From assembly GCA_031263985.1 (NCBI GenBank), contig JAISER010000094.1, positions 1 through 35,761 of the forward strand: a stretch of DNA of 35,761 bases, in the 5' to 3' direction. Numbering within the stretch: position 1 is the first letter of the stretch; every line of letters begins with the position of its first letter. Below the pieces are notes generated by a model. The model searched no databases. It was not told the DNA's origin and saw only the letters and a list, made by a program, of their open reading frames with translations. Shown here in pieces: positions 4,722 to 35,761 of the stretch. A program made the translations under genes and the position numbers. Source of the DNA: Clostridiales bacterium (GTDB lineage Bacteria > Bacillota > Clostridia > Lachnospirales > JAISER01).

Positions 4722-4728
4722 CAAAATC

Positions 4729-7021: not shown

Positions 7022-7062
7022 AGCTATCGTAACTATGTAAAAAACGGGGTAAGACTTTCTTT

Positions 7063-7971: not shown

Positions 7972-8054
7972 CCGCAGCTCTCCCTTTCACTACCGAATAT
8001 CGCGCCGCAAAACTCCAAAATCACGGACGCTTGCGCGCCGCTATCATATTTTAT

Positions 8055-9005: not shown

Positions 9006-9031
9006 AGCGTTTTTCCTTCCGGCTTTTTCTC

Positions 9032-9162
9032 TAAGAGTCTGTTTAAGATCTCGCTTTTAGCGGACTTTTGTGATGATTTTTCGCCAAACGCGGAAACGCG
9101 AATAAAGCTTGGCGGAAAGTAAGCCAAAAAAACGCAAAACGGAGATCTTGAACAGGCTCTAA
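9032..9162. mobile_element. MITE-like element, copy A (131 bp)
   Basis: The ends form an imperfect inverted repeat of about 27 bp: left TAAGAGTCTGTTTAAGATCT, right (reverse complement) TTAGAGCCTGTTCAAGATCT. Two of the mismatches would be G-U pairs in RNA. An inner pair CGCCAA/TTGGCG lies in the centre. It encodes nothing. It fills the gap between hprK and glk, and the hprK stop TAG (9159-9161) lies inside its end. Copy B at 11473 has the same design. No clear target duplication could be read. Confidence 0.8.
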
Positions 9163-10094: not shown

Positions 10095-10123
10095 AAAGCC
10101 ACCGTCCCGACGCGTTCAACGCG

Positions 10124-11597
<1,474 letters not shown>

Positions 11598-11637
11598 GAT
11601 TATAAAATTTCTTAAAGCCATAGGCGGCTGTTAGAGT

Positions 11638-13176: not shown

Positions 13177-13291
13177 ATCAAATACCCGCCCATGTCAAAA
13201 ATTTAAAGCGTTTTTCATCACGACAAACGTATGCGTAAAACTTGCCAGGTTCGGCTGCGCTTCAAACTAAGTCCAGCATAAAACGTCGTCG

Positions 13292-14035: not shown

Positions 14036-14055
14036 TAAAAAAACCCCCGTATTTC

Positions 14056-15246
14056 TTATTTGTTTTGTATGACTTCGACGCCAGGCAGCGATTTGCCTTC
14101 CAAAAATTCAAGAGACGCGCCGCCGCCGGTCGAGATGTGAGTCATTTTATGTCCGAAACCGAGCTGATTAACCGCCGCCGCCGAATCCCCGCCGCCTATT
14201 ACGGTCATGGCGTCAATTTCCGAAAGCGCCTTAGCCATAGCTATCGTGCCTTTCGCGAAATTTTCAAACTCAAATACACCGAGAGGTCCGTTCCAAAGGA
14301 CGGTTTTAGCTGTCTTTACCGCGCCTGAAAACAAGTCGCGCGTTTTTTCACCGACATCGAGGCCCATCCAACCTTCTTCGATTTTGTCCACGTCCACGGT
14401 TTTGAAATTCGCGTCGTTTTTGAAAGCGTCCGCGACGACTATATCTATCGGCAGCGACAGATTGACGCCCTTGTCTTTCGCTTTGTTCATCATTTCACGC
14501 GCGTAATCGATTTTTTCAGCGTCCAAAATGGAATTTCCGACTTCGTAGCCTTGCGCTTTTGCGAACGTATACGACATGCCGCCGCCTATTATAAGCGTAT
14601 CGACTTTGTCAAGCAAATTATTGATAACGTTTATTTTGTCCGAGACTTTAGCGCCTCCAAGTATCGCGACAAACGGTCTTTGGGGATTATTAACGACGGC
14701 GCCTAAAAATTCGATTTCCTTACTCATTAAATAGCCCACGGCCGTTTCGGCGACGAATTTCGTTACGCCGACCGTTGAACAGTGCGCTCTATGCGCCGAA
14801 CCGAAAGCGTCGTTTACATAAATATCAGCCAGATTGGCCAGAGCTTTTGAAAACGCGTCCTCATTTTTAGTCTCTTCCTTGCGAAAACGGGTATTTTGAA
14901 GGAGCAGCGCGTCGCCGTCCTTTAGGCCCTTAACAGCCAGCCTGGCTTTTTCACCCGCGACGTCATCATCCGCCGCAAAGATAACGTCTTGCCCCAAATG
15001 CTCGGATAATCTTTTGGCAACTGGCGCGAGAGAAAATTCCGCCGACGGTTCTTTTGGTTTGCCAAGATGCGAACATAAAATAAGCCGTCCGCCATCGCTG
15101 ATAATTTTTTTAATCGTGGGCAGCGCCGCGACAATCCTGTTTTCATCAGTTATTTCCCCGTTTTGTATCGGGACATTGAAGTCCACGCGAACCAAAACGC
15201 GCTTACTTCTAACATTTAAATCATCAACCGTTTTCTTGTTAAGCAT
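14056..15246 (-). CDS. pgk: Phosphoglycerate kinase
   Basis: Pgk makes ATP and 3-phosphoglycerate from 1,3-bisphosphoglycerate. From the ATG at 15246 the product is 396 aa, the standard size, beginning [20 protein letters not shown]. It shows [41 protein letters not shown], and the C-terminal nucleotide-binding [15 protein letters not shown] and [16 protein letters not shown] longer frame reaches 15357 but would start inside the promoter; GAAGGGAGA precedes 15246 at eight bases. It is the first gene of the run. No gap (GAPDH) gene or cggR-type regulator lies upstream, unlike many Firmicutes. Confidence 0.97.
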
Positions 15247-19300: not shown

Positions 19301-22300
19301 GTCGTAATAGGAATACATAAGAGCGGCGCGGTTGCTGTCCGTACGTGATTCTAAATCGTCAATCCATACAAGAAGCTTCTTATTCGATCCCAAATCCGTC
19401 AGTATCGGATCTCCGTAGGGATATACGTTCGTCTTAAACCGCTTATATTCCTTGCCCACGGGGGACACCGCCGGCGCTTTAAACAGAATATCGTTCGCGG
19501 TAAATTTCGACGATCTCAGAGCGTAATCACGCCCATCCAGTTCGAAGTCCGCGCTCTGCGCGGCGGCCATAAAACCAATGCCGCCGTTGCTCGGCATCGT
19601 GACCTTGACCATATCCAGCTTTGCGTTATAAAGGAACGCGCGCAAGGTCCCGCGCAAACCCGACTCAAATGAGTAACGAGTGTCGTTAAGCGGCGCTGTC
19701 GAGACAATATCGCCGCCGCCGAAAAATTCAAGATCCATAGACGCTATCTTGGAAACCCCAAAACCTGATCCCACATGACCGTTAACTCCAAGGCCAAGCT
19801 CGCCTTCGAAAGTTAGCTTGAGGTCTTTCGTAATATCCGCGACCTTCAGTTTGGAAGTAAGCTCCCCGCCTATCGTCCCGCCGTACACGAACGGCGCGGA
19901 TACGGAACCTACCGTAATAACAGCCTGTTTCTGAACGTTATAGTTTCCGTTGAACGCCCCTATCACGCCGCTCGATTCCGTGTACAGCGTCCCGTCGTCC
20001 CTGACAATGCCGTCGGCGTAACCTATGACGGCGGCGTCGAACGAACGGCCGCCAAAGTCAGCCTTGTTATCAACCGCGCCGCCTAATGAACGCGCGACAT
20101 TAATGATAGTTTCCCGCTCGGCTCCGTTTTTATTAACGTCGTCCACAAAATTCTTCAGCCGCGCGAAGCCCGTCTCGCTGGACAGCGCATCCTCGCCTAC
20201 CCCTATTGACATCATAAACCGCTTGCCGTTTTCGGATTTAGCGAATTCAACCGGCGCTCCGGATATATTCAAGCCTATCGACTCATCGCCGAACAACTTC
20301 AGTTCCGCGTCAACCTTTACAGGCGGAATACGGAAATCTACGCTTCCATTATGCTGGAGTATATTGTCGCCATTCGGCTGCGTCGGATCGCCGCCTTCCG
20401 GCGCCAGGTATATTAGACCGCGTTGTTTCAGGAAAATATATTTAAGCGAAAATGGCTCAAAACCGGTCTTGCTTACTGTTATCATCTTGTTATATCCGCG
20501 CGGAACGTCTATCTTGACCAAGCCGGCGGCGTCCGCCAGCCAGCTTTTCCCGTCTTCTGACGTGAATAACGCCCCCGGGACAGGTATCATAACATTGTTC
20601 TCATTATGCGTGTAAGCGAATACGCTTCCGGTCTCCAATACGACGCTTGGCGGCGGCGGTGACGCCGGCCTGAAGCCAAAGACTACGTCAACCTCCGCGT
20701 TGCTGCCTTCACGCGTAAACGCGAACGCGCGCCTTAAGCGATAGATTAAATCGCTTTGCAGGAAATCGGCGCTGAAATCCATCGTAAACGAAGACTTTAG
20801 GGATTTTTGCGGCTTCAGCTCGCTTATGAAAACGCTGCCGCCGCCTACCAAAGCCCCCGGCGCGTTTTCAAGATCTTCATACGTATATTCAGGCAGCAAT
20901 GTTCCGCCCTCTATTTCAAATCCCACGTTATACAGCGTAATATCGGATATATTAACAAGCTCAAAGTCCACGTTGTACGGCGCTCCGACGAAAGCTTTAT
21001 CGTCAGCTTGGACGTAAAGACAAAGCGCGTCGCCAGCCCAAACCTTTACAGGCTCCTCAACCGTGAATGTCTTTGTGATGGGCGCTCCGTCGGACCAAGC
21101 GCCCGTGACAGTGGCGCTGAGGTCGTAAGTCCCGGCCTTGTCGCCTCTGACTATCCAGCTTGCGCCGCCAACGCCTCCGTCGCCCGGAATCAAACCTATA
21201 TCCACAATCTCGTTTTGCGGCGCCGGGGTCGGCGCGAGCGAAAGACCGTCGGCTGGCAGGTTAAGCTTAGCCTTTATATCCTCCAAGTACAAATTTTCCG
21301 GCGCGTAATTTATCAGATCCAACTGAACCATAAAGAACTCTTTCAGCCAATGCGCCTCTCCGTATATCAGCATGTAGGCCACGCTCGGCGGCACGTCCGG
21401 ATATTGCGACGGAATGAAGACAGGCCAACCGCTTCCGCCGCCGCCGCGATATCCTCCTCCGCTTCCGCCGCCGCCGCTCCCTCCGACGACGCTTCCGCCC
21501 GCATTAACATAATACGGTTCAGTATACCTCTCGCCCAAAAATTCCAGGACTATCGTGAATTTCCAGACAAACTGGTTATCCGGGTCATTCACGTCTATGC
21601 CCGCTTGCACTATCTCATCGAACGACATTCTCTCCGTAGTGAGCGCGCCCACTAGGTAATCGCTCCTGTTCATGATAATGGAGCCGTAAAAATTACTTGT
21701 ATTAAGGCTCTGCGTGTTCAAAGTTATCGTTGTAACCTCAAAATCGCGCTTATATCCCGTTACGCTCGTATTATCGCCGCGCGGCGCGACTACCGAGACC
21801 TTACCCTGGTCGTCGGCGATCATAGGCGCCAGCTCTTCATCTCCGTTAGTTATCAGAACTGTAGCGCCTGAAGCTGACGACAAATTCCCCGCTTTGTCAC
21901 GGCCCTGAACTTCTATATCTATAACCGCCCAGTCGCCGTCTTTCTCATGAACCGTTATATCCTTCGCCGCGGAAGCCTGGTTTCCCTTACGGTCCGTTAC
22001 CGTCAGCGTTACCGTATATTCGCCGCTCGCCGCGTATGCGTGTTTCACGCTTATGCCGTTTTCATCAGGGGATCCGTCTCCAAAATTCCAAACGCCATCA
22101 ATGATTTTGTCGTTATCCGTTGAGGCGGCGGCTGAAAAGTCGGTCGCGTATTCAACTACGGCGTTCTCCTGCGCGGTTATCGCCGGCACAGGATTTTCAT
22201 CGTCGTAGAGTATGGCTTCCGCGCTTTGCGACGCGCCGGCGCTTTCGTTTCCGGCTGAATCATAAGTCACTATTTTGAACGTATAAACGCCAGGCTCTAA

Positions 22301-25300
22301 GCTGTCAGCGACATAGGACAGGGAATTCGGCCCTAAATTCGCCGCGTATTGATAGCTTCCGTCGCCGAGAGCGTCGATATATATCTTGTAACCGGCTATA
22401 TCGGCTTCGGAGCCGTCATTCGTCCATTCTATTCCGGCTTGCAGATTGCCGTCCGTCCCTATCGGCGTCCTGTCCGACGGCGGCGCGTTATCTATGACGT
22501 ATCTTATGACTTCAACGTCCGACACATTGCCTTTGGCGTCGGTCAAACGAATCCCGAAGTCATATTCGCCGTCAGGCTGACTATCGTACCAATTGTCAAA
22601 CGTCACTATTTCCGAACCTTTTGACAGGTTCAGCGATTGAAGCCGCGTCCACTCCGCGGCGGCGTCAGCTTTGTACAAAAGCTCGGCGCTCGCCAACTTT
22701 ACATTGTCAACGACGCTTGCGGTTATCGACGCGTTCGAACGAATTCGGGCGTTCGCGTACGGATACGCCGAATAGACCGACGGCGGCTCGGCGTCAGCCG
22801 TCGGAACAGCCCAAACCACAGGGCTTTTAAGGCTTTGATTCCCCGCCGCGTCTATGGAAACCAGGTAATAATAATACTTTTGGTCTTGCTCAACCGATTT
22901 ATCATAATACCCTATATAACGATCGGTATTAAGTATCAACGAGTAGCTTCCCGGCGCGCCGTTCTCATCCTCGGCGCGGTAAAGATTGAACCCTGCGAAA
23001 CCCTTGTCATTCTCTGATGGCGCATTCCATTTAAGGTATATATATGCGGCGCTCTCGTTAACGACAAAACCCGTAGGCGTCTCAGGCAGCGTTAAATCCA
23101 CTCTGTAGCTGTAAACCGGCGTGCCGTCGCTAACATTGCCGGCCTTATCGTAAGCTATGGCGCGAATATAGATTACGCCGTCATACGGTTTTCCATTATT
23201 GTCAAGCGACGCCGCGTCAAACGTGAATTCCACGACGCCGTTCTTCCCGCTGGCGGGTTTTTCTTCATCCGCCGTTTCCCACGTAAGCTGATCGACGGAA
23301 TATTGCAGCGCTACCTTTGACAGCCCTACATTATCAATGGAAGTAATCGTGAATGTAGTCGCTCCGGTTATATATGACCCGTTCACCGGAGATATTAGGG
23401 AGACGCTCGGCTTGCCGCCGTCAAGCTCAAACATCTGTTCGGCGCTGACGACGCTGCTGTTGCCCGCTCTATCCACAGCTATGGCGCGGACTTTATAGAC
23501 GCCGTCAGCAAGCGACGTAGAGTCGAATGTTCCGCTTTCTTTAATTTTGCGTCCCGGAACCGCGACGTTCTTTTCAAACAGCTTGGTAAAACCGCCGCCG
23601 TCCAGAGAATATTCCACTACGACGCTATCCACGAAATAATTGTCAGCGGCTTCCACTTGCCATTCTATCGCGTTTCTTCCGTTGACATACGCGCTAAACG
23701 AGCTGACTTCCGGTTTTATCAAATCTACGCGATAGCTTGACTCCGCATAATCGCTCTTGTTCAGATTTCTGTCGAGCGCATACGCCCTAAGCTGTATGGT
23801 TCCGCTGGTCGTATCGCCTATGTTAACAAAGGCTTTGACGCTGTCCTCGGCTTTTTCGCTCAAAAGGTTACCGATTTCAACCCAGTCGCCGTTCCTGTCC
23901 TTAGATTCGACGACGACGCGGTATAATTTCTTGTCGTCCTTCGCGGTCACATTTAACTGTAAATTATCGGAAATAATTGAGTTCTCGCCTGGCTCAAACC
24001 CTGTTATAACCGGCTTTGACGCGTCGCTCGCGTCGAGCGCCGAACTGTAATTCCCGAGGGATTGAGAGCTTACGGCGTTGTTCTGATCAAGAACCTGGAT
24101 CAGCAGCTCATATTCTCCGCCTTCTAGGTCGAAATCCACCTGAGCTGACTTGCCCGAAAGCCTGTTCCACGCTCCTATGGCGACCGTTCCGTCCGGCGCC
24201 ACGCGCGCCGCGCGGTACGCGGATAACCATCCCTCGCGGTCCGACAATATCGCGGATACCCTCAACGGCGGATTATAAAGCGTATAGCCGCCGTCGGCGG
24301 GGCCTATCTTCTCTACGGATATCGAATCATTGACCCCATATACCGTGACTTCCTGCTCGTAGGGCAATGACCATAACTCGTCGTCGCCTTTTACGCGCAG
24401 TTTTATCGTATAGTTCCCAGATGGCCGCCGAGAAAAATCAAAGCTCGCGGAACCGCCGCCTAGCGAGAGATCAGGCTCAATGTCTTGAACCGCTTCGCCT
24501 CCGCGGCTCACTTCCCATTCAAATTCCGTTATACTGCGGTACGAAGGATTGTATGACAGATCTTTAGCGGTTATAACCGCGTTCACATTAACTCCTGGCA
24601 TACTGAATTCAGCCGGCCAAATTTCGTGATCGCTTACTGAAAACTCAGCCAAAGGCGGCACATGCGCCGACGTAATGTACAGCGACGCCGGCGCGCTCGT
24701 TTGCCCTGTCACTGAGTCGGTTACGCGCGCTCCGACAAAATAGTGCTTATCTTCTTCCAATGTAAATGTAAACGTATCGCCCGAATTCGACTGAGCCTTC
24801 CATTCCCCGGCATCCGCGTCCATCAGAGTCCACGCGTATCCTCCTATGGGGTTGCCCAGCGACGTCGCGGCGTCTGTCACGCTGACCTGCGCGGAATTCC
24901 CCGATATTACCGCGGTAAGACGCGGGGCTTCGGGCTTGACAAGCTTCCTATCGAGGATCTGATCGTATATATAGCTCGCGAGCTTCTCAACGCCCTGTTC
25001 AAGCGACTCCTCGTCTTCAAGACTCCTGTTAATAAACAAACCGCGCCCCAGATTCTGCGCCACAAGCGCTTCCGCCTGGTCTTTCACCGTCTCAAACAGG
25101 GAACTTTCCGCGATAGCGTTATTAACGCCCCATCCCGCGTAATGAGCGTCATTATTATTCAGGTAATAGAGTATAGTCGAAAGATCTTGAGTCGCGTTCA
25201 GATCCTTAACCCCGTCGTTGTCAACATTCGCTATTACGCGGATTGAATTTGGATACGTCCACTTTGCGCTTCTTATCGTATCAGTCAAAGAATTCGAATC

Positions 25301-26293
25301 ATCGGTCGACATTTTCAGATCGCTCATGATTATGTGCGTCTGAGACGAGCAACCGTGGCTGGCGTATGAGCCGATCGGGCCAAAACCGTAACTTCCCGAT
25401 ACGTTCGACAGCGGCGTCGGCTCTATGACCCGTTGTTTCATCTCGCTGTAAGTTCCGTCCGTAAACGAGTACAGCGAAGCTTCTTGCGGCGACGCTACCA
25501 GTCGGAGATAGTGCAGGGACCCCGACGGCTTCGCCACCCTGGTTATCAATTGAACCTTTCCTCCCCAAACGCTGGCGCGCCCCGCCGCGGATGAGAAGGT
25601 TTCGCTGGCGGCGTCAACCATCGCGTCCACATCGACATCCTCGATCCAGTAAAGAGAAACATTGCCGGTTCCCATAAGCGCCATGTAGCCGCTGAGCGTT
25701 CTCTTGCCATCTTTGAGCTTGTAGTCAGCGTTAAACAGGAAACCGAAACCCTCAATGGTATGAGTATCTATTTTCGACTCATCCAATTTGAAAGTAAAAA
25801 CTTTGTTATTCGACGCCGAGTTCGGCATGAACAGGAAATCCTTGAACGCCGGCGCTCCGTAACCCAGGAATTCTACCGTATCTTCGCCGTATATTACATG
25901 CGTATCGTCTATTTTTCTTATGTAAGGATCATTGTAGTATTTCAGCCTGTTCAGCCCGTCGTCCGTATCAGCGGCCTCATCGTTAGTGTGGTCCACCCTG
26001 AGCCAATCAAAAGTCTCATCAATATAGCTTACATTTGTGGTATTCACGGTCAGCGATTCGCCCGGAACGCCTTTTCGCTCCAAAGCCTCACGCAATAGCT
26101 CGCCCGTTCCCGTCAGGTTAAGATTGTTCGCCGCGGCGTCCGCCGCTACCAGAACTTCGATGTAATCATCGAAGCCGGCTCCCCATGCCGGCGCGCCTGG
26201 CGCCGCAAGAACCGTCCCTCCGGGCAGCGCCGCTGACGTCAACGCCAAACATGCCGACAAAAGAGCCGCCAACAGTTTCCTGAATTTTACCAT
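16391..26293 (-). CDS. Giant secreted SLH-anchored multidomain surface protein (3300 aa)
   Basis: A signal peptide (MVKFRKLLAALLSACLALTS, cleavage near VLAA) is followed by an N-terminal region of unknown fold (to about 450), Ig-like modules, fibronectin-III-like modules (about 1070-1165 and 1275-1360), a PKD domain (1370-1450, WNFGDGSPDENG), a Gly-rich stretch (1596-1623), a carboxypeptidase-regulatory-like domain (about 1885-1960), propeller-like repeats (about 2295-2640), CARDB-like modules (2655-2870), a chitobiase C-terminal-like module (2876-2958), an InlB-B-like repeat (2956-3030), a Gly-Ser linker, and three SLH domains (3109-3300) that bind cell-wall polymer. No catalytic domain was recognised; adhesion or S-layer-associated binding is inferred. 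The frame is open to 26338, but ATG 26293 has AGGAGG at ideal spacing and begins the signal peptide. The gene is monocistronic. Domain borders are approximate. Confidence 0.9.
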   Translation of the reverse strand: MVKFRKLLAALLSACLALTSAALPGGTVLAAPGAPAWGAGFDDYIEVLVAADAAANNLNLTGTGELLREALERKGVPGESLTVNTTNVSYIDETFDWLRVDHTNDEAADTDDGLNRLKYYNDPYIRKIDDTHVIYGEDTVEFLGYGAPAFKDFLFMPNSASNNKVFTFKLDESKIDTHTIEGFGFLFNADYKLKDGKRTLSGYMALMGTGNVSLYWIEDVDVDAMVDAASETFSSAAGRASVWGGKVQLITRVAKPSGSLHYLRLVASPQEASLYSFTDGTYSEMKQRVIEPTPLSNVSGSYGFGPIGSYASHGCSSQTHIIMSDLKMSTDDSNSLTDTIRSAKWTYPNSIRVIANVDNDGVKDLNATQDLSTILYYLNNNDAHYAGWGVNNAIAESSLFETVKDQAEALVAQNLGRGLFINRSLEDEESLEQGVEKLASYIYDQILDRKLVKPEAPRLTAVISGNSAQVSVTDAATSLGNPIGGYAWTLMDADAGEWKAQSNSGDTFTFTLEEDKHYFVGARVTDSVTGQTSAPASLYITSAHVPPLAEFSVSDHEIWPAEFSMPGVNVNAVITAKDLSYNPSYRSITEFEWEVSRGGEAVQDIEPDLSLGGGSASFDFSRRPSGNYTIKLRVKGDDELWSLPYEQEVTVYGVNDSISVEKIGPADGGYTLYNPPLRVSAILSDREGWLSAYRAARVAPDGTVAIGAWNRLSGKSAQVDFDLEGGEYELLIQVLDQNNAVSSQSLGNYSSALDASDASKPVITGFEPGENSIISDNLQLNVTAKDDKKLYRVVVESKDRNGDWVEIGNLLSEKAEDSVKAFVNIGDTTSGTIQLRAYALDRNLNKSDYAESSYRVDLIKPEVSSFSAYVNGRNAIEWQVEAADNYFVDSVVVEYSLDGGGFTKLFEKNVAVPGRKIKESGTFDSTSLADGVYKVRAIAVDRAGNSSVVSAEQMFELDGGKPSVSLISPVNGSYITGATTFTITSIDNVGLSKVALQYSVDQLTWETADEEKPASGKNGVVEFTFDAASLDNNGKPYDGVIYIRAIAYDKAGNVSDGTPVYSYRVDLTLPETPTGFVVNESAAYIYLKWNAPSENDKGFAGFNLYRAEDENGAPGSYSLILNTDRYIGYYDKSVEQDQKYYYYLVSIDAAGNQSLKSPVVWAVPTADAEPPSVYSAYPYANARIRSNASITASVVDNVKLASAELLYKADAAAEWTRLQSLNLSKGSEIVTFDNWYDSQPDGEYDFGIRLTDAKGNVSDVEVIRYVIDNAPPSDRTPIGTDGNLQAGIEWTNDGSEADIAGYKIYIDALGDGSYQYAANLGPNSLSYVADSLEPGVYTFKIVTYDSAGNESAGASQSAEAILYDDENPVPAITAQENAVVEYATDFSAAASTDNDKIIDGVWNFGDGSPDENGISVKHAYAASGEYTVTLTVTDRKGNQASAAKDITVHEKDGDWAVIDIEVQGRDKAGNLSSASGATVLITNGDEELAPMIADDQGKVSVVAPRGDNTSVTGYKRDFEVTTITLNTQSLNTSNFYGSIIMNRSDYLVGALTTERMSFDEIVQAGIDVNDPDNQFVWKFTIVLEFLGERYTEPYYVNAGGSVVGGSGGGGSGGGYRGGGGSGWPVFIPSQYPDVPPSVAYMLIYGEAHWLKEFFMVQLDLINYAPENLYLEDIKAKLNLPADGLSLAPTPAPQNEIVDIGLIPGDGGVGGASWIVRGDKAGTYDLSATVTGAWSDGAPITKTFTVEEPVKVWAGDALCLYVQADDKAFVGAPYNVDFELVNISDITLYNVGFEIEGGTLLPEYTYEDLENAPGALVGGGSVFISELKPQKSLKSSFTMDFSADFLQSDLIYRLRRAFAFTREGSNAEVDVVFGFRPASPPPPSVVLETGSVFAYTHNENNVMIPVPGALFTSEDGKSWLADAAGLVKIDVPRGYNKMITVSKTGFEPFSLKYIFLKQRGLIYLAPEGGDPTQPNGDNILQHNGSVDFRIPPVKVDAELKLFGDESIGLNISGAPVEFAKSENGKRFMMSIGVGEDALSSETGFARLKNFVDDVNKNGAERETIINVARSLGGAVDNKADFGGRSFDAAVIGYADGIVRDDGTLYTESSGVIGAFNGNYNVQKQAVITVGSVSAPFVYGGTIGGELTSKLKVADITKDLKLTFEGELGLGVNGHVGSGFGVSKIASMDLEFFGGGDIVSTAPLNDTRYSFESGLRGTLRAFLYNAKLDMVKVTMPSNGGIGFMAAAQSADFELDGRDYALRSSKFTANDILFKAPAVSPVGKEYKRFKTNVYPYGDPILTDLGSNKKLLVWIDDLESRTDSNRAALMYSYYDGSEWSVPAQVDPGDNTADFYPEVSVTDGVARIIWMDADRELTENDGFDAVSSVMGISAAAFDDGVLSLAEKLPAIDGKLDMMPVYVGPDDHGVEYAAWVGGDGGVFDSAQSVIYIARKSSGVWSSDLDTISVDGRVTDIDITNAGSVYIAYTVVTGEGEVADTTLRLLEYGSAAWTIGNGGTIFSTPVFDGGVLYWYEDGQILYADASAPEYVKTALGEDNGGALTADFKVFSDAAGRKAIAWLGASGEDGANEVWSSFYDAAEDRWSPGARITDTELYITSFSGYMDAAGAIALAYEGAPIISEATETSAAAYGDFDLYTADIEPVNSLYLDESTWIDSSNLPIDGELTVMAVVRNSGEKSVNSVTLETLDEDGQVIYTFDAPVTLLPGESETITVNIPLLDNYTGGNVSIRVKPTGDNVNASMSNRILVELDAPDIAVSVQKTQVTGGGAAEIYVKISNLSGKPVGELPLTLRYDSPTGDELYSTEFVDGIDAYDSVLLPIKLNNIDFDGKDARSVYVEVAPLEGEIAVSNNVYHIALAYVALETLAAPTASPVAGAYSSVQSVTLSADTDGADIYYTLDGSEPTRSSVKYQTPIQITSDTTIKAIAVKDGMTDSETVAFGYEIKITDKALITATARTGGSVAGGGEYEIGAEVTLTATANSGYVFSGWYENDLRITGAQAIYRFTAAAARTVQARFEISSSGSSGGSGGSGGSGGSGGSGGSGGSGGSSGSGGSGAGQTVISGTDQSTTEDSTADNATENSGGADVAIDDLKTPLGEIELYDIDGHWARQAIRTLVQANVIAGYPDGTFKPENNITRAEFLTMLLQVLKIDVETSAYQNTFVDVHAEDWHAATIQKAYELGVVQGVGDGRFLPDARITRQEVTAMTVRLAARRGVLNNDMKLNKTLAKFTDQGEISDWARDSLEQAVDYGLINGITETTLAPLANSARAEAAQMIYNLLTRAGLLK
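17109..17180. repeat. Two perfect 36-bp repeats coding a Gly-Gly-Ser linker
   Basis: The 36-bp unit at 17109-17144 is repeated exactly at 17145-17180, with partial 9-bp units on both sides. It encodes the GGS repeats joining the InlB-like module to the SLH anchor. Such perfect short repeats allow in-frame length change by slippage or recombination. Confidence 0.85.
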
Positions 26294-26392
26294 AAAATGA
26301 CCTCCTCTGATCATTGCGCGGCGACTTACTCTCCCCATAACCGCGCCTCTTTAAAATATTAGAGCTATCTCGTAAAGCGCTGAGATATTAGG

Positions 26393-26937: not shown

Positions 26938-28176
26938 ATGAGTTTTGCCGCTCAAGCTGTTAAAGAGTCGCTTATGCGTGAGATTGAACTAAAGGACGAA
27001 GTCGGCGTCGAAGGGTTAAATCTCGAACCGTCAATTTTCCATCATCTCGCCCTGGGCGCGGAATATCAAGAACAAGTCCACACACTTTTCGAGCGCGATC
27101 ACGAGCCGCATGAAGGATTCTATCTGCCGTGCGGTTTTAAGTCTCCCCATGGCGTCCGCTTCGCGTTTAAATGGGACCGTCGATCATATATCGGAATAAT
27201 TTACGATGGCGAAAATTACATTCTTACCAAACGCGGAAAGGAACTTTTTCCTATTGAGTTTGATAAGCGGCCCGAATATTTCAAACTGTCCGGTTCAGAC
27301 GGAACGCCGTTTAAAACAGTGGGCGGATATACCCACGGAGATATAGCCGGGTCAGTTCTAAACGTCGCTTACAGCAATGAATGCGCGCTGAAAGACAAGG
27401 GTCTCGACTGCCTTTTCTGCAACGCCAACGCCACTGCGGCGCGTTACGCGAAAAAAGAGGGAGTCGGCTGGAAAAACCCGCGTCTGATCGACGAGGCGTT
27501 AAAATCCGCCCGCGAAATGGACGGCGTGACGCATTTCGTCCTAACCGGCGGGTTTATTCCGGAACGCCGCGAAGTCGATTATTATCTCGATGTCGCCGAC
27601 GCGATCGCAGACATTACAGGCGTCAAAGATTTTAACGGCACAGCCGTTATAGGCGCTCCGCTGGATTTAGAAATAATTGACAAATACGCGGAGTCGCCCT
27701 TCGACACAATCTCCATAAACCTCGAAGTGTGGGATCCCCATTATTTCGAGGTTATCAACCCAGGGAAATCTCAACAATGCGGCGGACGCGACCACTGGAT
27801 CAAAGCGCTGGATTACGCGGCGAAGAAATTCGGCAAAGGAAAGGTTCGCACAAGCTTCGTCACGGGGATCGAACCAAAACCGTTTACCCTTGAAGGCGTG
27901 GAATATTTAGCGTCAATAGGCGTTATATCATTGACCGGCGGTTGGAACGTCGGTCTCGGTTCCGCGCTGGAAGGCCACCGTACGCCGGAACCCGCCTGGC
28001 ATTGGGATATGCACAACAAAGTTAAGGATATCCTTAAAAAGCATGATTACAAATATCTGGACTATTTCAACGTCTCCGCCGGCGCCACGACTGTCGTCAG
28101 CGACCTTTTAGCGGCGGACGAAGGGCTTTTTCCTGTTCAGAGAACGTTGAGCGAAAAAACGGCTATAGCCTTATAG
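26938..28176 (+). CDS. Atypical radical SAM protein, first of a tandem pair
   Basis: A 412-aa probable radical SAM enzyme. The cluster-binding cysteines appear to be Cys149, Cys158 and Cys161 in NECALKDKGLDCLFCNANA, a CX8CX2C spacing instead of CX3CX2C. They are followed by the SAM-binding Gly motif HFVLTGGFIPERREVDYY and barrel strands with GAPLDLEIIDKYAES, SINLEVWDPHYFEVINPGKS, RTSFVTGIEPK and SLTGGWNVG. The strand pattern recalls biotin-synthase-like radical SAM proteins. About 145 residues precede the cluster, with PCGF (Cys65) and FKWDRRSY, not recognised as a known domain. No SPASM extension is present. Strong GGAGG start signal. The second copy begins 34 bp after the stop. Specific reaction unknown. 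Confidence 0.8.
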   Translation: MSFAAQAVKESLMREIELKDEVGVEGLNLEPSIFHHLALGAEYQEQVHTLFERDHEPHEGFYLPCGFKSPHGVRFAFKWDRRSYIGIIYDGENYILTKRGKELFPIEFDKRPEYFKLSGSDGTPFKTVGGYTHGDIAGSVLNVAYSNECALKDKGLDCLFCNANATAARYAKKEGVGWKNPRLIDEALKSAREMDGVTHFVLTGGFIPERREVDYYLDVADAIADITGVKDFNGTAVIGAPLDLEIIDKYAESPFDTISINLEVWDPHYFEVINPGKSQQCGGRDHWIKALDYAAKKFGKGKVRTSFVTGIEPKPFTLEGVEYLASIGVISLTGGWNVGLGSALEGHRTPEPAWHWDMHNKVKDILKKHDYKYLDYFNVSAGATTVVSDLLAADEGLFPVQRTLSEKTAIAL

Positions 28177-28210
28177 ATCGACTATGCCGCGCAATGAAAG
28201 GGGAAATGAA

Positions 28211-29470
28211 ATGAGCGCAACCGTACAAGCTTTAAAAAATCAATTGCTGAACGATATCGAACTTAAATCCGAAATAGGCGTAGAAGGCATAAACCTGGAA
28301 CCTGAAATTTTTAAAACGCTCGCGCTAGGAACCGAGTATCAAGAGCAGGTCCATACTTTGTTTGAATTCGACCATGAAGCGCACGAGGACATTCCGCTTC
28401 CATGCGGATTTACTAATCCTAACGACGTCCATTTTGGCTTCAAATGGGACAGACGCTCGTATTTTGACATTATTCGCGAAGACGGAAGCTATTTGCTCAG
28501 AAAAAAGGGCAAAGAGTTATTTCCGATAGCATTCAATAAACGTCCGAAATATTTTGAGTTAAAAGGCTCAGACGGAACTCCGTTCAAGACTGTCGGAAAT
28601 TACGCGCCAGGCGAGCTTGCCGGCTCAACGCTTAATGTAGCGTACAGCAACGAATGCGCGCTGAAAGAAACGGGGCTTGACTGCCTGTTCTGCAACGCTA
28701 ACGCCACCGCGGCGCGTTATGCCCATAAAGAAGGCGTAACCTGGAAAAATCCTCGTTTAATCGGCGAAGCGCTTAAAGCGGCGTGGGAATTAGACGGAGT
28801 CAGACACTTCACCTTAACAGGCGGGTTTATTCCCGAGCGGCGTGAAGTTGATTATTACCTTGACGTGGCCGAGGCGATCGTAGATATCGCCGGACTTGAG
28901 GATTTCAACGGAACCGCTGTAATAGGCGCTCCGCTGGATCTGGAAATAATCGACAAATACGCGGAATCGGCGTTCCGTACGCTGTCAATAAACCTAGAAG
29001 TCTGGAATCCCCATTATTTCGAAATCATTAATCCTGGAAAATCGAGCCAACTCGGCGGACGCGGAAATTGGATCAAAGCTCTTGAATACGCAGCTAAAAA
29101 ATTCGGCTGGGGCAAAGTGAGAACGAGCTTCGTCACAGGGATCGAACCTAAAAACTTTACTATTGAAGGCGTGGAATATTTGGCGTCTATAGGCGTGATC
29201 TCGCTGACCGGCGGCTGGAATGTCGGCATCGGTTCCGCGTTGGAGGGTCACCGCACGCCAGAACCCGCTTGGCATTGGGATATGTATAACAAAGCGCATG
29301 ATATCCTCAAGAAATATGGCTTTAAGCATCAAGATTATTTTGACGTCTCACCTGGCGCCAATACTCTTGTCGGCGATCTGTTCGCGGTTGAGGAAGAACT
29401 TTTCCCCATTCAAAAAGAACTAACTCAAAATGAACTAACCGCGAAAGATTCAAGCCGAAAAAGCGCGTGA
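28211..29470 (+). CDS. Atypical radical SAM protein, second of a tandem pair
   Basis: A 419-aa paralogue of the preceding gene, aligning without gaps over nearly the whole length. By hand count 120 of the first 170 residues are identical, and the core looks even more alike. The three cysteines fall at the same numbers, 149, 158 and 161 (NECALKETGLDCLFCNANA), as do TLTGGFIPERREVDYY and SLTGGWNVGIGSALEG. Differences include CGGRDHW becoming LGGRGNW and a longer charged tail. The frame is open from 28184, but ATG 28211 matches the paralogue start and follows AAAGGGG. Duplication with retention suggests a heterodimer or two related substrates; both are inference. Confidence 0.8.
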   Translation: MSATVQALKNQLLNDIELKSEIGVEGINLEPEIFKTLALGTEYQEQVHTLFEFDHEAHEDIPLPCGFTNPNDVHFGFKWDRRSYFDIIREDGSYLLRKKGKELFPIAFNKRPKYFELKGSDGTPFKTVGNYAPGELAGSTLNVAYSNECALKETGLDCLFCNANATAARYAHKEGVTWKNPRLIGEALKAAWELDGVRHFTLTGGFIPERREVDYYLDVAEAIVDIAGLEDFNGTAVIGAPLDLEIIDKYAESAFRTLSINLEVWNPHYFEIINPGKSSQLGGRGNWIKALEYAAKKFGWGKVRTSFVTGIEPKNFTIEGVEYLASIGVISLTGGWNVGIGSALEGHRTPEPAWHWDMYNKAHDILKKYGFKHQDYFDVSPGANTLVGDLFAVEEELFPIQKELTQNELTAKDSSRKSA

Positions 29471-29472
29471 AG

Positions 29473-29498
29473 AAAGGCGGTTTTCCCGCCTTTTTTCT
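29473..29498 (+). terminator. Terminator of the radical SAM pair
   Basis: An 8-bp stem, AAAGGCGG (29473-29480) with CCGCCTTT (29486-29493), a 5-nt loop and a U-rich tail (TTTCTT), three bases after the stop. It is a typical intrinsic terminator. It could stop the opposing transcript weakly. Confidence 0.85.
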
Positions 29499-29615
29499 TA
29501 GAATACAGATAACTTACCCTGCCCGGTAATATTTCGTTATCGTCCGCACAGCTATTCCGCCGTCAATATATATGCCTGCCTATTTTCGACATTTCCGCCG
29601 CTCCGTAAAAAAATA

Positions 29616-29760: not shown

Positions 29761-31533
29761 TTAAGAAAATTGCGATTTGTAGAGTCCGGCGTAAACGCCG
29801 CCCAATTCAATAAGCTCTTTGTGGGCGCCGCGCTCCGCTATATCCCCGTCCTTTACAACCAAAATTATATCCGCATCACGTATGGCGGACAACCGGTGCG
29901 CTATCACGAAACATGTTTTGCCGCCGCCGTCTTTACCGCGCATCAATCGTGTCATCGCGCTCTGAATCTTCTTTTCCGTCCACGTATCGACGTTGGACGT
30001 GGCTTCGTCGAAAATCAGCATATCCGCCTGAGACATCATGGCTCTGGCAATAGATATCAGTTGTTTCTGCCCTTGAGAAATGTTCGTTCCGTTTTCGCTT
30101 AATATAGTATTGTACCCGTCAGGCAGCGAATTTATATAATTATGTATTTGAGCGGCTTTCGCCGCGGCGACAACTTCGTCCATAGCGACGTCGCCTCGGT
30201 CCGCGCGTCCGTACGCGATATTTTCAAACACTGTTCCGTGGAACAGCCAACTATCCTGCAATATCATCGCAAATCCGCGCCGCAGGCTTTTACGCGTCAC
30301 CTCTCTGATTTCGCGTCCGTCGATCTTAATTTCACCTTTCTGAGGATCGTAGAACCGCATAAGCAAGTTGATGATAGTAGTTTTTCCCGCGCCTGTCGGT
30401 CCCGCGACCGCTACGAGACTTCCTTTAGGTATATTCAAGTTAAGATTTCTAATTACGGGAGACTCGTCGTCATATCCAAACCTCACATTTGTAAAATCCA
30501 CTTCGCCTCCCGTCGTAACAAGCGGCTGAGCCTTGTCAGCGTCAGCGGCTTCCCGAGGTTCATCGATCAGCGCGAAAACTCTTTCCGCCGCCGACAGAGC
30601 GGATTGAAGCTCGCTTGAGATATTCGCGATTTCCGTAATAGGACCCGAGAATTTACGCGAATAGAGAATAAACGCCGCTAAACCTTCCAGCGCGAGACCG
30701 CCGTAGATATAGAACAGCGAGCCGAAAACGGATATTAACGCCATCGCCGCGTTGTTTATCATCATCATGCACGGCCCGACGAAGCTAGCGTTATATTCAG
30801 CGATATAATGGGCGTCCACAGCTATCCTGTTCTTATCTTTAAAAAGGGAAGCGAAATAATTCTCTTTGCGATAAGCTCGTATAGTTTTATGCCCGCCTAT
30901 AATCTCTTCCGCGTATCCGTTCAGCTCTCCCAGCTTCACGCTTCTTTCATGAAACATCGGTCGTACCTTTTTTCCCATGTAGCGCGCGAGCAAAAATGAA
31001 ACGGGCAGCGTAGCCGCGTATGTAATCACAAGCGGCGGAGAAATGGACAACATCATTATGAACGAACCGACGACAGTAATCAAACTGGAAACGATTTGTA
31101 CAAGATCGTTTGAAAGCGAAGCGTTGACTCTATCCACGTCATATGAAATATGACTTATTATGTCGCCCGCCTGATGACGGTCAAAGAAGGCCACGGACAG
31201 CTCCGTCACGCTATCAAATATATCCTTTCGCATACGCTTCGTCATTTGTTGACTTAGTTTAATCATCATCACGGAAAGGATATACGACATCACAGAAGAA
31301 ATGACATAAAAGAACGCCAGCAAAGCGCAATAAAAGACGACCGCCTTAAAATCAACGCCGCCCGCCGCGTCGCCTATTACGCCAATCGCCTTTCCTAACA
31401 GGAGAGGGCCAAGCAACGAAAAAAGATTACTTGTCACGGATATGACGATCGCCGCAACCACCCTCCACTTATAACGGCAAATGTATGTCCATAGCCTAAA
31501 AAGAGTTTTTTTAGCTTTCCGCGGCTTCCTCAA
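29761..31533 (-). CDS. Heterodimeric ABC exporter, canonical-site subunit
   Basis: A fused membrane and ATPase subunit of about 590 aa. Transmembrane helices fill roughly residues 20-290; the ATPase has Walker A GPTGAGKTT (378-385), signature ISQGQ (485-489, departing from LSGGQ), Walker B MLIFDEATSNVD with catalytic Glu510, and His546 in IAHRL. With the upstream subunit it would form one working and one degenerate ATP site, as in BmrCD- or TM287/288-type exporters. The frame is open to ATG 31650, but that start overlaps the upstream gene by 101 bp and gives an unusual basic leader. TTG 31533, 17 nt after the upstream stop with AAGGAT before it, is preferred; this is not certain. Substrate (drug, lipid or peptide) unknown. 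Confidence 0.88.
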   Translation of the reverse strand: MRKPRKAKKTLFRLWTYICRYKWRVVAAIVISVTSNLFSLLGPLLLGKAIGVIGDAAGGVDFKAVVFYCALLAFFYVISSVMSYILSVMMIKLSQQMTKRMRKDIFDSVTELSVAFFDRHQAGDIISHISYDVDRVNASLSNDLVQIVSSLITVVGSFIMMLSISPPLVITYAATLPVSFLLARYMGKKVRPMFHERSVKLGELNGYAEEIIGGHKTIRAYRKENYFASLFKDKNRIAVDAHYIAEYNASFVGPCMMMINNAAMALISVFGSLFYIYGGLALEGLAAFILYSRKFSGPITEIANISSELQSALSAAERVFALIDEPREAADADKAQPLVTTGGEVDFTNVRFGYDDESPVIRNLNLNIPKGSLVAVAGPTGAGKTTIINLLMRFYDPQKGEIKIDGREIREVTRKSLRRGFAMILQDSWLFHGTVFENIAYGRADRGDVAMDEVVAAAKAAQIHNYINSLPDGYNTILSENGTNISQGQKQLISIARAMMSQADMLIFDEATSNVDTWTEKKIQSAMTRLMRGKDGGGKTCFVIAHRLSAIRDADIILVVKDGDIAERGAHKELIELGGVYAGLYKSQFS

Positions 31534-31549
31534 ATCATCCTTATAAGAC

Positions 31550-33277
31550 TTAGAGACTTGACGACTGATGACTTTCGCCGCCCCCCATCTGCGAAACGTA
31601 AATTTCGTTGTAAAACTCGCAATTTTCCGACAAAAACCTATGTGTCCCATATCCGACGAGTTTGCCGTCGTCCAAAGCGATAATCTTATCGGCGTTCATT
31701 ACGGAACTAATCCTCTGCGCTACTATAATCAACGTAGTTTCTCGATAATTTTTAGCTATCGAACGCCTAAGCGCCGCATCGGTAGTATAGTCCAACGCGC
31801 TGGAAGAATCGTCAAGAATCAGAATATCCGGCTTACTCGCAAGCGCCCGGGCGATAATCAGTCTTTGTTTTTGTCCTCCGCTGACATTGGTTCCGCGAGC
31901 CGCAAGCCTGTGATTAAGCCCGTTTGGCTTATCTTCAATGAATGTCGCCTGCGCGTTCAGCGCAGCCTCAGAAATCCGTTTCATTGAAAGCCCGCGGCCG
32001 AAATCAATATTCTCAGCTATGCCTCCGGCGAATATAATATCGTTTTGGAACGCCACGCCGAATTTCGGATAAAGTTCCTCCGGAGCGATAGCGTTGACAA
32101 GTTCGCCGTCTACTCGGATCTCCCCGCTGTCACAGTCGTAAAAACGCATAAGCAGATTGATCAGAGCGCTTTTGCCGCTTCCCGTCGAACCAAGTATTCC
32201 CAGAGTTTCGCCTTTGCCTATTGTAAAAGAAATGTTTTCAATATTGTTCTTTTTCTTATCGTAAGAAAACGAGACATTCTTAAATTCCACGCGAGGCGCG
32301 TTTTTGTCTTTTATTCTCACCGCCGGCCAAATCTCAGGCTCATTGGGCAGATCCATAATCTCCTTAATTCGTTCAGACGACGCCATCCCTCTTGAATAAG
32401 AAACGAAGATGCGCGTTATCCACAACATCGCGGATGAAAACATCGTAAAATAAGTTAAAAACGCGACTATTACCCCAGGTTTAGTCAACCCGTCGTTCAC
32501 GCGGAAAGCTCCTACAATAACAATTACGACAAGTCCGACATTCAGCAGCAAGTTCATGGCGGGGTTTGTCATCGCCATTATAACGCCCGCTTCGGTCTCT
32601 CGATCGGACACGGCGCTATTGTCGCGGTCAAAACGTTCCCGTTCGTATCCGGTTTTGGATAAAGCCTTAATAACGCGGACGCCTACTATATTTTCCCGAA
32701 CAATTCTGACCATGCCGTCGATAGTTTTCTGCATATCCGCGTACATGGAAATACCCTTGCCGCTGATTTTCCATACCACGGCGCCCATAATCGGCAACGC
32801 GCCGACCAGCGCAAGCGTAAGCGCGCCGTCCTGCGCCCATATGACGAAAATGCCGCCAATCAGCATAATCGGGGTACGAATACCCATACGCATCATATTG
32901 TTAAGAAATTCGTGAATATTATAAGTGTCCGCGGTCAGACGCGACTCAATGGATGACAAAGTCAGCCGGTCAATCTGCCCTCCGGACAGTGAAAGCGTCT
33001 TTTCAAACAGATCGTTTCGAATTTTCTCCGTGACGTCGCGGGCGATACGCACCGCCATACGATTCGGAATTACGTTGAACTGTAAACTGATAAACGCGAC
33101 GACTAATATGAGCCCACCCCACAATAATATGGTTTTCACATCTTTTGTCGGCGCTACATTGTCCACGATATGCGCGAATATCATCGGCGACGCCAAGTCC
33201 AGCAGCGTACCGACCGATTTAAGAACGAATAAAATAACCATATGCGAATAGTGCGGGCTCAACCGTCTCCAGAGCAT
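31550..33277 (-). CDS. Heterodimeric ABC exporter, degenerate-site subunit
   Basis: A 575-aa exporter half with membrane helices over residues 12-295 and an ATPase domain: Walker A GSTGSGKS (363-370), canonical signature VSGGQKQR (465-472), Walker B ILILDD (485-490) with Asp490 where the catalytic Glu should be, and Gln521 in VAQRI in place of the switch His. These two changes mark the noncatalytic member of heterodimeric exporters, and they fit the partner gene downstream, which has Glu and His but a poor signature. ATG start preceded by GGTTGGTGA. It begins 52 bp after the binding-protein gene, so it may share a transcript with the importer. Confidence 0.93.
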   Translation of the reverse strand: MLWRRLSPHYSHMVILFVLKSVGTLLDLASPMIFAHIVDNVAPTKDVKTILLWGGLILVVAFISLQFNVIPNRMAVRIARDVTEKIRNDLFEKTLSLSGGQIDRLTLSSIESRLTADTYNIHEFLNNMMRMGIRTPIMLIGGIFVIWAQDGALTLALVGALPIMGAVVWKISGKGISMYADMQKTIDGMVRIVRENIVGVRVIKALSKTGYERERFDRDNSAVSDRETEAGVIMAMTNPAMNLLLNVGLVVIVIVGAFRVNDGLTKPGVIVAFLTYFTMFSSAMLWITRIFVSYSRGMASSERIKEIMDLPNEPEIWPAVRIKDKNAPRVEFKNVSFSYDKKKNNIENISFTIGKGETLGILGSTGSGKSALINLLMRFYDCDSGEIRVDGELVNAIAPEELYPKFGVAFQNDIIFAGGIAENIDFGRGLSMKRISEAALNAQATFIEDKPNGLNHRLAARGTNVSGGQKQRLIIARALASKPDILILDDSSSALDYTTDAALRRSIAKNYRETTLIIVAQRISSVMNADKIIALDDGKLVGYGTHRFLSENCEFYNEIYVSQMGGGESHQSSSL

Positions 33278-33329: not shown

Positions 33330-34433
33330 CTATGACCGATATTCCTGTTCGGCTTTTTCAAACCAACTTGCGTCATACCACTCATCAATGTCAACCTCTT
33401 GGTCGGAAAGGCCTTCATCGACCAGCCATTTAGTCGTAGCCTTCAAACTAGCTAAAAATTCCGGCGTCGCTTTTAAAGAAAGCGCCCAGTCATCTATAGC
33501 GGGTTTGGCCTCATTCACGTCTTCCAAATCAGACCCGGCCGCAACCGCCAAGCCGCGCAGCTCGTCAAGATTTTCTTTAGCGTAATCCGAACTGCGGATA
33601 AGCGCCTTGAGGAAAGCGATAGCGACTTGAGGGTTTTCTTCAAGATATTCCGTACGGAAAATAACGTCTTCGGTATATCCCCATTCGCTTTTCCCTTCTG
33701 ATGTCAACAAAATCTTATAACTGTCTCTTTCCATTTTCAAAGCGTTGACATGACTGGTCAGAAAAGCTTGAATATCATCTTTAATAAACGCGGCGATCGC
33801 GGTATCGTTGGTCATGTTTAAAAACTCAATGTCATTAGGACCCGATCCGTCGGTCTTCGGCAAAGAGATCCCCCCTGTAGCCAGAAACAAACCCAGTATG
33901 CGATGCATATACGTTCCAAACCCGGCGGCGACACGCTTACCTTTTAAATCGCTCACCGACTTGATGTCAGGTTTTACGGCCAACACGCTGTCGTTATCCG
34001 AAAGCTGTCCGCCTAACAATGTCGTGTCCGTACCTTTGGATTTCACCTGCGTCGCCGGAACGTCGCCATATATAGCGGCGTCCAAGCTTTTCCCCGTCAG
34101 CGCGGCGTTAATCTCCGGCCCTGATTTGGCGAACCCTATAACCTCAATAGTGGCGTTGACCTTCGCCAGTTCCTCTTCAAAAAAACCGTTCTTATAAGCA
34201 AGCCCCTGTATACCCGTCCAAAGTCCGCTTCCGGGATGCCCTACTCTTAGCTTAACCGCCGGATAAGACTCCGGGCTATCGCCGGATCCGCCGCTTTCGC
34301 TATCTTGACCAGCGGTCGATTGACCGGCGGTCGGTTGACCAGTGGTCGGTTGACCATTAGACGGCCGGCTTGGACCGCACCCGGAAAAAATCATGGAGAA
34401 TAGCGTAACGCCGATTAATAATGTCTTTTTCAT
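33330..34433 (-). CDS. NMT1/TauA/SsuA-type substrate-binding lipoprotein
   Basis: A 367-aa solute-binding protein of the nitrate/sulfonate/taurine/thiamine-precursor class. The signal MKKTLLIGVTLFSMIFSGC is a lipobox with Cys19 as the lipid anchor. A low-complexity linker with GQPT/GQST repeats follows, then the fold: LRVGHPGSGLWTGIQGLAYK, NGFFEEELAKVNATIEVIGF, GPEINAALTGKSLDAAIYGD, SVSDLKGKRVAAGFGT. The last pattern is typical of TauA/SsuA-like proteins. The ligand is not readable from the sequence. ATG follows AAGGGAAG. It lies downstream of its ATPase and permease in one minus-strand operon. Confidence 0.9.
   Translation of the reverse strand: MKKTLLIGVTLFSMIFSGCGPSRPSNGQPTTGQPTAGQSTAGQDSESGGSGDSPESYPAVKLRVGHPGSGLWTGIQGLAYKNGFFEEELAKVNATIEVIGFAKSGPEINAALTGKSLDAAIYGDVPATQVKSKGTDTTLLGGQLSDNDSVLAVKPDIKSVSDLKGKRVAAGFGTYMHRILGLFLATGGISLPKTDGSGPNDIEFLNMTNDTAIAAFIKDDIQAFLTSHVNALKMERDSYKILLTSEGKSEWGYTEDVIFRTEYLEENPQVAIAFLKALIRSSDYAKENLDELRGLAVAAGSDLEDVNEAKPAIDDWALSLKATPEFLASLKATTKWLVDEGLSDQEVDIDEWYDASWFEKAEQEYRS
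34305..34349. repeat. Three 15-bp repeats coding the lipoprotein linker
   Basis: Three near-identical 15-bp units starting TTGACC at 34305, 34320 and 34335, with a partial fourth at 34350, encode the Gly-Gln-(Pro/Ser)-Thr-(Ala/Thr) linker after the lipid-anchored Cys. Length variation by slippage would only change the tether. Confidence 0.75.
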
Positions 34434-34498: not shown

Positions 34499-35281
34499 TT
34501 ATATCATATATTCGATTTCCGATCTTTGCTCTCCAAACAGACTGATGTATATTTTCCGACGAATATCGAGAAAATCCTCCCTTGTTCTGTCACGCGGGCG
34601 AGGCAATCCGACCGGAACGATCTTTTTGATACGAGCGGGCCGCTCAGACATGACTACTACATAATCGCCTAAAAAAATCGCCTCATCAATATCATGAGTG
34701 ACCAAAATCATGGTCGAACGCTCGGTTTCCCAGATATACAGCGCTTCTTGCTGAAGCTGGATGCGAGTAAGCGCGTCCAACGCGCCGAACGGCTCATCCA
34801 TCAAAAGAACCTGCGGACGATGAACAAGCGCCCGCGCGATAGCCGCGCGTTGAGCCATTCCGCCGGATAATTGGGCCGGAAAAGCGTTCGCGAATTTTTT
34901 CAGTCCGACCAAAGTCAGATGCGACTCTATCAGTTCCTTTTTTTCGCCCGCGCTCATGCCGTACAGACCAAAAGCGACGTTATCATATACGGTCATCCAC
35001 GGTATCAAGCGGTGATCTTGAAATATCATTCCTCTGTCCACGCCCGAACAGCGGATATCGCGTTCTCCTAAACGAACCACGCCCGTTTCATACGTTTCCA
35101 GTCCGGCGATAACTCGCAGAAGAGTGCTCTTTCCGCAACCGCTATGCCCCACAACGCTAATAAACTCTCCATGCTTCACATCAAGCGAAATGTCGTCTAA
35201 AACTTTAATGACGTCATTCTCTATTTTAAACTCTTTGCTTAGGTTCCGGATGACTAAATTTTCTATAGCGCGCTCCGCCAT
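34499..35281 (-). CDS. ABC importer ATPase (SsuB/TauB/NrtD-like)
   Basis: A 260-aa ATPase for the importer. It shows Walker A GHSGCGKS, the Q-loop IFQDHRLIPWMTV, signature LSGGMAQRAAIARAL, Walker B VLLMDEPFGALD and the switch His in LVTHDIDEA; the sequence LIPWMTVYDNVAFGL is typical of the nitrate/sulfonate/taurine group. The frame has a GTG two codons upstream (35287), but the GGGAG site is 7 bases from ATG 35281 and only one base from the GTG, so ATG is chosen. It lies 48 bp after the permease and 65 bp before the binding protein. Confidence 0.94.
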   Translation of the reverse strand: MAERAIENLVIRNLSKEFKIENDVIKVLDDISLDVKHGEFISVVGHSGCGKSTLLRVIAGLETYETGVVRLGERDIRCSGVDRGMIFQDHRLIPWMTVYDNVAFGLYGMSAGEKKELIESHLTLVGLKKFANAFPAQLSGGMAQRAAIARALVHRPQVLLMDEPFGALDALTRIQLQQEALYIWETERSTMILVTHDIDEAIFLGDYVVVMSERPARIKKIVPVGLPRPRDRTREDFLDIRRKIYISLFGEQRSEIEYMI

Positions 35282-35329
35282 AGCCACACTCCCACTAGGT
35301 AAGATTTAACGGCGTAAAATCTGACAGCG

Positions 35330-35761
35330 TCAAGCTCTTTGCCAACGCGTAAACCTCTTTATTATTAAACGCAGCGTAAAATCCGTCATCCCTCCAATCG
35401 CTCCAATCACAATCATGTCCACCAGCAGCATATCTGACAGCATCATCGTCTGCGCATGCGTAATGCGATATCCAAGTCCGTCCACAGAGGCGAACATTTC
35501 CGCCGCTACTACCGACATCCACGCCGCCGCCGCGCCCAGACGAAGTCCCGTGAATATGTATGGCAGAGAAGACGGCAGATATATTTTGCCGATTAGATCC
35601 AACTTAGTGACGTTGTACAGTTTTGAAAGTTCAAGCAGACCCATGTTTGTGCTTCGCGTTCCGTCAATCGTGTTAATCAGCACGGGGAAAAACGTCCCTT
35701 TAGCCACGAGAACCAGTTTCGCCGCGTTACCTATTCCGCACCATATAATGATAAGAGGAAT
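35330..35761 (-). CDS. ABC importer permease (SsuC/TauC-like), 5' end outside window
   Basis: The C-terminal 143 residues of a binding-protein-dependent permease. The frame runs open to the window edge, beginning IPLIIIWCGIGNAAKLVLVA, so the GTG at 35707 is internal and the gene starts beyond 35761. Hallmarks are FFPVLINTIDGTRS, the EAA-type loop around LGAAAAWMSVVAAEMF that docks the ATPase, and DGLGYRITHAQTMM. It pairs with the ATPase and lipoprotein downstream as a complete importer. Confidence 0.92.
   Translation of the reverse strand: MPLIIIWCGIGNAAKLVLVAKGTFFPVLINTIDGTRSTNMGLLELSKLYNVTKLDLIGKIYLPSSLPYIFTGLRLGAAAAWMSVVAAEMFASVDGLGYRITHAQTMMLSDMLLVDMIVIGAIGGMTDFTLRLIIKRFTRWQRA

Follow-up and report, generated by a model that had tools for sequence, protein, structure and literature searches.

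Tandem IsrB-type radical SAM paralogs in a Clostridiales genome as candidate parts of radical SAM/transporter cassettes that may share a single nitrogenase-like core

Two adjacent genes of a Clostridiales bacterium (GenBank assembly GCA_031263985.1) encode putative radical SAM proteins with a CX8CX2C cysteine motif and a long N-terminal domain, a layout in which the initial annotation recognized no characterized enzyme. They lie on contig JAISER010000094.1, of which positions 1 to 35,761, the whole stretch analyzed here, are called the window. We asked to which family these proteins belong and what a genome might do with more than one of them. The features of the pair are as follows.

26938..28176, + strand: copy A, IsrB-type radical SAM protein, 412 aa
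26938..27345, + strand: copy A N-terminal domain, residues 1 to 136, helices followed by a beta sheet; no solved structural relative
27382..27420, + strand: copy A cluster motif, C149-X8-C158-X2-C161, invariant in 88 relatives
27544..27570, + strand: TGGFIPERR motif after barrel strand 2; G204, G205, E209, and R211 invariant
28211..29470, + strand: copy B, IsrB-type radical SAM protein, 419 aa
28655..28693, + strand: copy B cluster motif, C149-X8-C158-X2-C161, invariant in 88 relatives
29470..29505, + strand: likely intrinsic terminator, GGCGG-TTTT-CCGCC and then a T run, read from the sequence

The tandem pair is real: both open reading frames are complete, with the extent given in the initial annotation. 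For copy B we take the ATG at 28211, preceded by the Shine-Dalgarno-like GAAAGGGG, as the start; the listed start at 28184 makes the protein 9 residues longer. The copies are 75% identical in an alignment that is gapless as far as the C-terminal tail, and the three cysteines stand in the same frame in each, as had been claimed. Identity is lowest exactly where the strongest differences had been located, at residues 58 to 100 (56%) and in the tail (48% over residues 371 to 412), and reaches 84 to 86% over residues 146 to 370. Saturation of synonymous sites (pS 0.76) together with a pN of 0.15 indicates an old duplication with purifying selection on both copies, which agrees with the earlier view of a retained duplication. 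Given the likely terminator 3′ of copy B, the pair is probably a two-gene operon. An Rfam scan of the window found no leader of the riboswitch or T-box kind 5′ of the pair, and a plasmid collection searched with the pair gave no match. The upstream neighbor, on the other strand, encodes a secreted protein of 3315 aa whose C-terminal repeats are SLH-like (window positions 16391 to 26338).

Pfam reported Radical_SAM alone on the pair (E 1.7e-10). An AlphaFold model of a pair member, built with 88 sequences (pLDDT 94.6, pTM 0.93), has the strands of a radical SAM barrel beginning at residue 139, with the three cysteines directly after the first of them (residues 139 to 144), the outcome anticipated when structure prediction was suggested as a check. 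Motif and predicted barrel together support membership in the radical SAM superfamily, from which a [4Fe-4S] cluster and SAM cleavage are predicted; the TGGFIPERR motif would then sit where other radical SAM enzymes have the SAM-binding GGE motif. Both copies have CX8CX2C instead of the canonical CX3CX2C, and the spacing is as unusual as had been noted. We rejected it as the mark of a new class, since known radical SAM enzymes differ in their spacing, with CX14CX2C in QueE and CX5CX2C in HmdB (PMC4389238). Fold matches in the PDB were to the barrel only (BioB, MgmA, HydE, LipA, PylB, and MqnE), and in whole-fold comparison TMq values were at most 0.46 and no chain covered the entire model. BioB, HydE, LipA, PylB, and MqnE have the barrel in common with the pair (TMt about 0.5 to 0.6), but at 13 to 19% identity and with the N-terminal domain unmatched. 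Modeled alone (pLDDT 91.9), that domain had no PDB match with an E value below 0.38, in line with its description as unrecognized, and a PDB sequence search with the pair returned nothing relevant.

Among sequence families, the pair aligns to almost all of the NCBIfam model NF045502 (variant_rSAM), at 389 and 392 bits (cut-off, 125). The model is a generic one for the domain and also takes in a CX9CX2C subfamily (170 to 220 bits) and orphan branches without IsrD. Similarity to the MSMEG_0568 radical SAM family (TIGR04043) is distant, extending over residues 89 to 375 at 77 and 76 bits, far below the cut-off of 303.7 bits. A closer assignment came from gene neighborhoods, whose survey among homologs had also been suggested. 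We sampled 76 loci from named genomes by six-frame profile search, up to a distance of 10 kb from the radical SAM gene. IsrH, IsrD, and IsrK were found in 58 of them, and an SsuABC-type importer (binding protein, permease, and ATPase) in 64 to 66. Both D and K are nitrogenase-like; the one D protein tested against curated nitrogenase families scored above none of the cut-offs. This is the company kept by IsrB of Rhodobacter capsulatus (rcc02237), the radical SAM protein within IsrBHDK, a nitrogenase-like isethionate reductase (mSphere 2024, PMC11423573). IsrB likewise occurs there with IsrH, IsrD, IsrK, and an SsuABC importer; isethionate use in R. capsulatus was shown genetically to need all of isrBHDK and ssuCAB (PMC11423573). 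As far as tested, the pair therefore belongs to the IsrB family by gene neighborhood and by the cysteine signature of its partners (see below); a search for R. capsulatus IsrB in 397 genomes of the Rhodovulum family did not find it and gave matches from Rhodovulum only. The earlier statement that no characterized enzyme of this layout was recognized thus needs qualification: the family can be named as IsrB from its neighborhood and partners, while the profile match is to a generic model and the role of IsrB itself was stated to be unclear (PMC11423573).

Several further genes recur in these loci. A PNPOx-like protein was found in 16 of the 76, a MATE exporter in 15, and an MFS exporter in 12. 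A second variant_rSAM subfamily (170 to 220 bits) lies inside or near Isr loci L057, L070, L074, L088, and L091; its motif is CX9CX2C or CX10CX2C where read, and it adjoins a small conserved protein annotated PNP2. Arylsulfotransferase (ASST) genes occur in Isr loci L037, L044/L048, L078, and L087, near the clade of the C9 copy described below, and perhaps point to aromatic sulfates or sulfonates as substrates. A T-box precedes a radical SAM cassette in Clostridium polyendosporum (L041), with a specifier read as UGC (Cys), and beside the Isr locus L057 (positions 17173 to 21164) a T-box is followed by genes resembling a sulfate-type ABC importer.

The pair is not alone in its genome. The assembly (2.1 Mb, 90% complete) encodes four IsrB-type proteins, namely the window pair and one each on contigs C3 and C9. 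An SsuA-family binding protein and ABC genes are close by in each case. Its sole Isr-type HDK set lies beside metK on C41, a 7.3-kb contig without an IsrB-type gene. Of the C41 proteins, D has one conserved cysteine, K three, and H two, which is the published IsrHDK signature (PMC11423573), present in the same genome as the pair but unlinked to it. No other metK was found in the 90% complete assembly, and the idea that the core metK is always an extra copy was rejected accordingly. On contig C123, CysD, CysN, and an APS-reductase-like gene accompany a sulfite reductase (Cys gene names by sequence reading), so the organism can probably use sulfite. Another contig, C68 (L120, G000; positions 4164 to 14317), holds a second nitrogenase-like set comprising H, a binding protein, D, K, an ATPase, a permease, cysK, and a NifB-like gene, and looks like a Mar/Nfa-type organosulfur reductase.

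Whole-genome searches of 50 genomes picked for holding the protein (IsrB-type, 390 bits or more) found 89 IsrB-type proteins and one clear IsrD per genome; 26 of the genomes have a single IsrB-type copy, and 24 have two to six. The family is rare, with 5 genomes in a sample of 398 of the phylum, in which the IsrD search scored four candidates per genome and gives a lower bound. The four copies of the source genome are spread over three distant clades (98 to 100% SH-aLRT). The C3 copy clusters with genes of Azoarcus and Synergistaceae and is 77% identical to the Azoarcus (Pseudomonadota) protein, which suggests that cassettes of IsrB-type genes and transporters travel. The C9 copy shares its clade with one gene from Clostridiales and one from Ruminiclostridium, the latter adjoining an arylsulfotransferase. 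Broken or partial IsrB-type copies (G125:C46:23532-24426, G146:C168:11824-12402, and G155:C67:50548-50829) are a sign of cassette turnover. The published gene order B-H-D-K also occurs in alphaproteobacterial relatives (L103, L105-L107) and in L112. Unlike R. capsulatus IsrB, the pair is tandem, unlinked to HDK, and from a four-copy genome, and its clade is apart from the alphaproteobacterial ones; since the alphaproteobacterial B-H-D-K genes form a separate clade, the substrate of the pair need not be isethionate.

Could the pair be an off-shoot that has given up its work with IsrHDK and performs some unrelated radical SAM chemistry? Its contig has no HDK, and divergent CX8CX2C relatives (L137, L139, and L140) occur in three genomes without IsrD (G349, G374, and G446), so that the wider family has other uses and a rule that it never occurs without IsrD was rejected. 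Two of these three loci adjoin an Lrp/AsnC-like regulator. However, the clade of the window pair joins it to HDK-adjacent Paenibacillus genes and a Ruminiclostridium gene of an Isr locus (99% support), and the source genome does carry IsrHDK. We consider this explanation decidedly improbable.

The partners of IsrB also invite comparison with MarBHDK methylthio-alkane reductase, likewise a nitrogenase-like reductase with a radical SAM gene, by which sulfur is freed from organosulfur compounds. MarB is a NifB homolog, assumed to make a nitrogenase cluster (PMC12552129). By genetic analogy with marBHDK and nifB, and with isrB having first been named nflB (PMC11423573), IsrB might be a NifB-like maturase that builds a carbide-containing metal cluster for IsrDK. 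In contrast to the Mar system, however, the pair has no match to NifB-family profiles and IsrDK lack cluster ligands: the FeMo-co ligands are missing (PMC11423573), and a single cysteine column is conserved in the IsrD sequences compared here. The NifB-like gene of the genome adjoins the second nitrogenase-like set on C68, copy numbers run the opposite way, and HDK-adjacent IsrB-type copies are scattered over the tree (at least 18 changes), so there is no dedicated maturase clade. With ligands, NifB match, and copy numbers all against it, a NifB-like role was rejected; we grant it scarcely any probability.

Beside the pair, the window carries the following genes.

29761..33277, - strand: two half-transporter ABC exporter genes (29761-31650 and 31550-33277)
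33330..34433, - strand: SsuA-family (sulfonate-type) solute-binding protein of an ABC importer (TIGR01728, 3e-31, below its cut-off; PF09084)
34499..35287, - strand: ABC importer ATPase, NitT/TauT type
35330..35707, - strand: ABC importer permease, close to the contig end or running across it

The importer is convergent to the pair and 4 kb off, with the exporter in between. Relatives of the exporter pair also occur in Isr loci L042, L066, and L088, and the exporters (ABC here, MATE or MFS elsewhere) perhaps carry out the desulfonated residue. We calculated partial rank correlations over loci with both genes, a small sample of 17 to 28 rows. With IsrD held fixed, divergence of the binding protein tracks that of the radical SAM protein (r 0.41, p 0.001, 21 rows), and among direct neighbors r is 0.50 (p 0.001, 17 rows); the importer ATPase does likewise (r 0.31, p 0.005). 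The binding protein does not track IsrD (r 0.11 to 0.12, p 0.10 to 0.13). Controls behave in the opposite manner, tracking IsrD (IsrH 0.63, IsrK 0.74, and MetK 0.83) and not or hardly tracking the radical SAM protein (IsrH -0.04, IsrK 0.14, and MetK -0.37). Joint transfer of linked genes alone could produce the transporter co-divergence, at least in part. Even with joint transfer, these results show that radical SAM enzyme and transporter are passed on together as one unit, separately from the core.

This pattern bears on a further explanation, that IsrB is an activase which makes a radical or modification on IsrDK, as the PFL or IslB activases do, with paralogs that are redundant or tuned. 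Such a role was left open by the authors of the IsrBHDK study (PMC11423573), and some IsrB genes directly adjoin HDK. Yet up to six IsrB-type proteins accompany one IsrD in a genome, and the extra copies stand with different importers and co-diverge with these rather than with IsrD. MetK (26 of the 76 loci) and an MTA/SAH nucleosidase (23 of the 76) also suggest a use of SAM beyond rare activation. Choi-Rhee and Cronan reportedly found that biotin synthase depends on a nucleosidase to function in vivo. 5′-Deoxyadenosine inhibits radical SAM enzymes and needs disposal (PMC8102628). The presence of both genes in Isr loci fits bulk SAM use but is suggestive only, as the nucleosidase also serves methylation. 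Altogether, we regard an activase as unlikely.

We instead favor, as the best reading and with a probability of roughly 0.6, a shared core with interchangeable, SAM-consuming, substrate-specific radical SAM/transporter cassettes. Signs of sulfur control also speak for it: besides the T-box of L041, SAM riboswitches precede isr genes in L044, L048, and L057, the distance being 330 to 410 bases in Clostridium luticellarii and C. tyrobutyricum. The window pair would be two paralogous IsrB-type enzymes of oxygen-independent organosulfur (sulfonate) scavenging. The core, encoded once (on C41 here) and made up of the nitrogenase-like, ATP-driven reductase IsrH, IsrDK, and MetK, would serve several cassettes, each consisting of an IsrB-type radical SAM enzyme and an SsuABC-like importer. 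Each radical SAM enzyme would attack its own imported sulfonate with a 5′-deoxyadenosyl radical, SAM being a co-substrate; IsrHDK would provide low-potential electrons or the final reduction, and the sulfite released would pass to sulfite reductase. Since across genomes one reductase core appears to serve several IsrB-type enzymes, each with its own transporter, it is probably the radical SAM enzyme that chooses the substrate. That this enzyme acts on the substrate and uses SAM stoichiometrically, which protein breaks the C-S bond, and what the substrates of the pair are, we infer; a counterpoint to the shared core is that the pair itself has no linkage to HDK. It is conceivable, rather than probable, that IsrB-type proteins are themselves substrate-specific desulfonases, breaking the C-S bond with one SAM per turnover while IsrHDK acts as a common ATP-driven electron source, the diet being widened by acquiring cassettes.

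The 2024 description of IsrBHDK dealt with a single IsrB and a single substrate and left the role of IsrB open; nothing is said of paralogs or copies in its main text (PMC11423573). In the literature examined we found no IsrB biochemistry and no description of the multicopy, transporter-linked IsrB pattern, which may be new and bears on the role of IsrB. One core with many cassettes predicts that the paralog decides the substrate and that SAM is spent per turnover. If this is true, a nitrogenase-like enzyme would be a power unit common to several exchangeable radical enzymes, and gut and sediment anaerobes would use a wider range of organosulfur compounds than isethionate.
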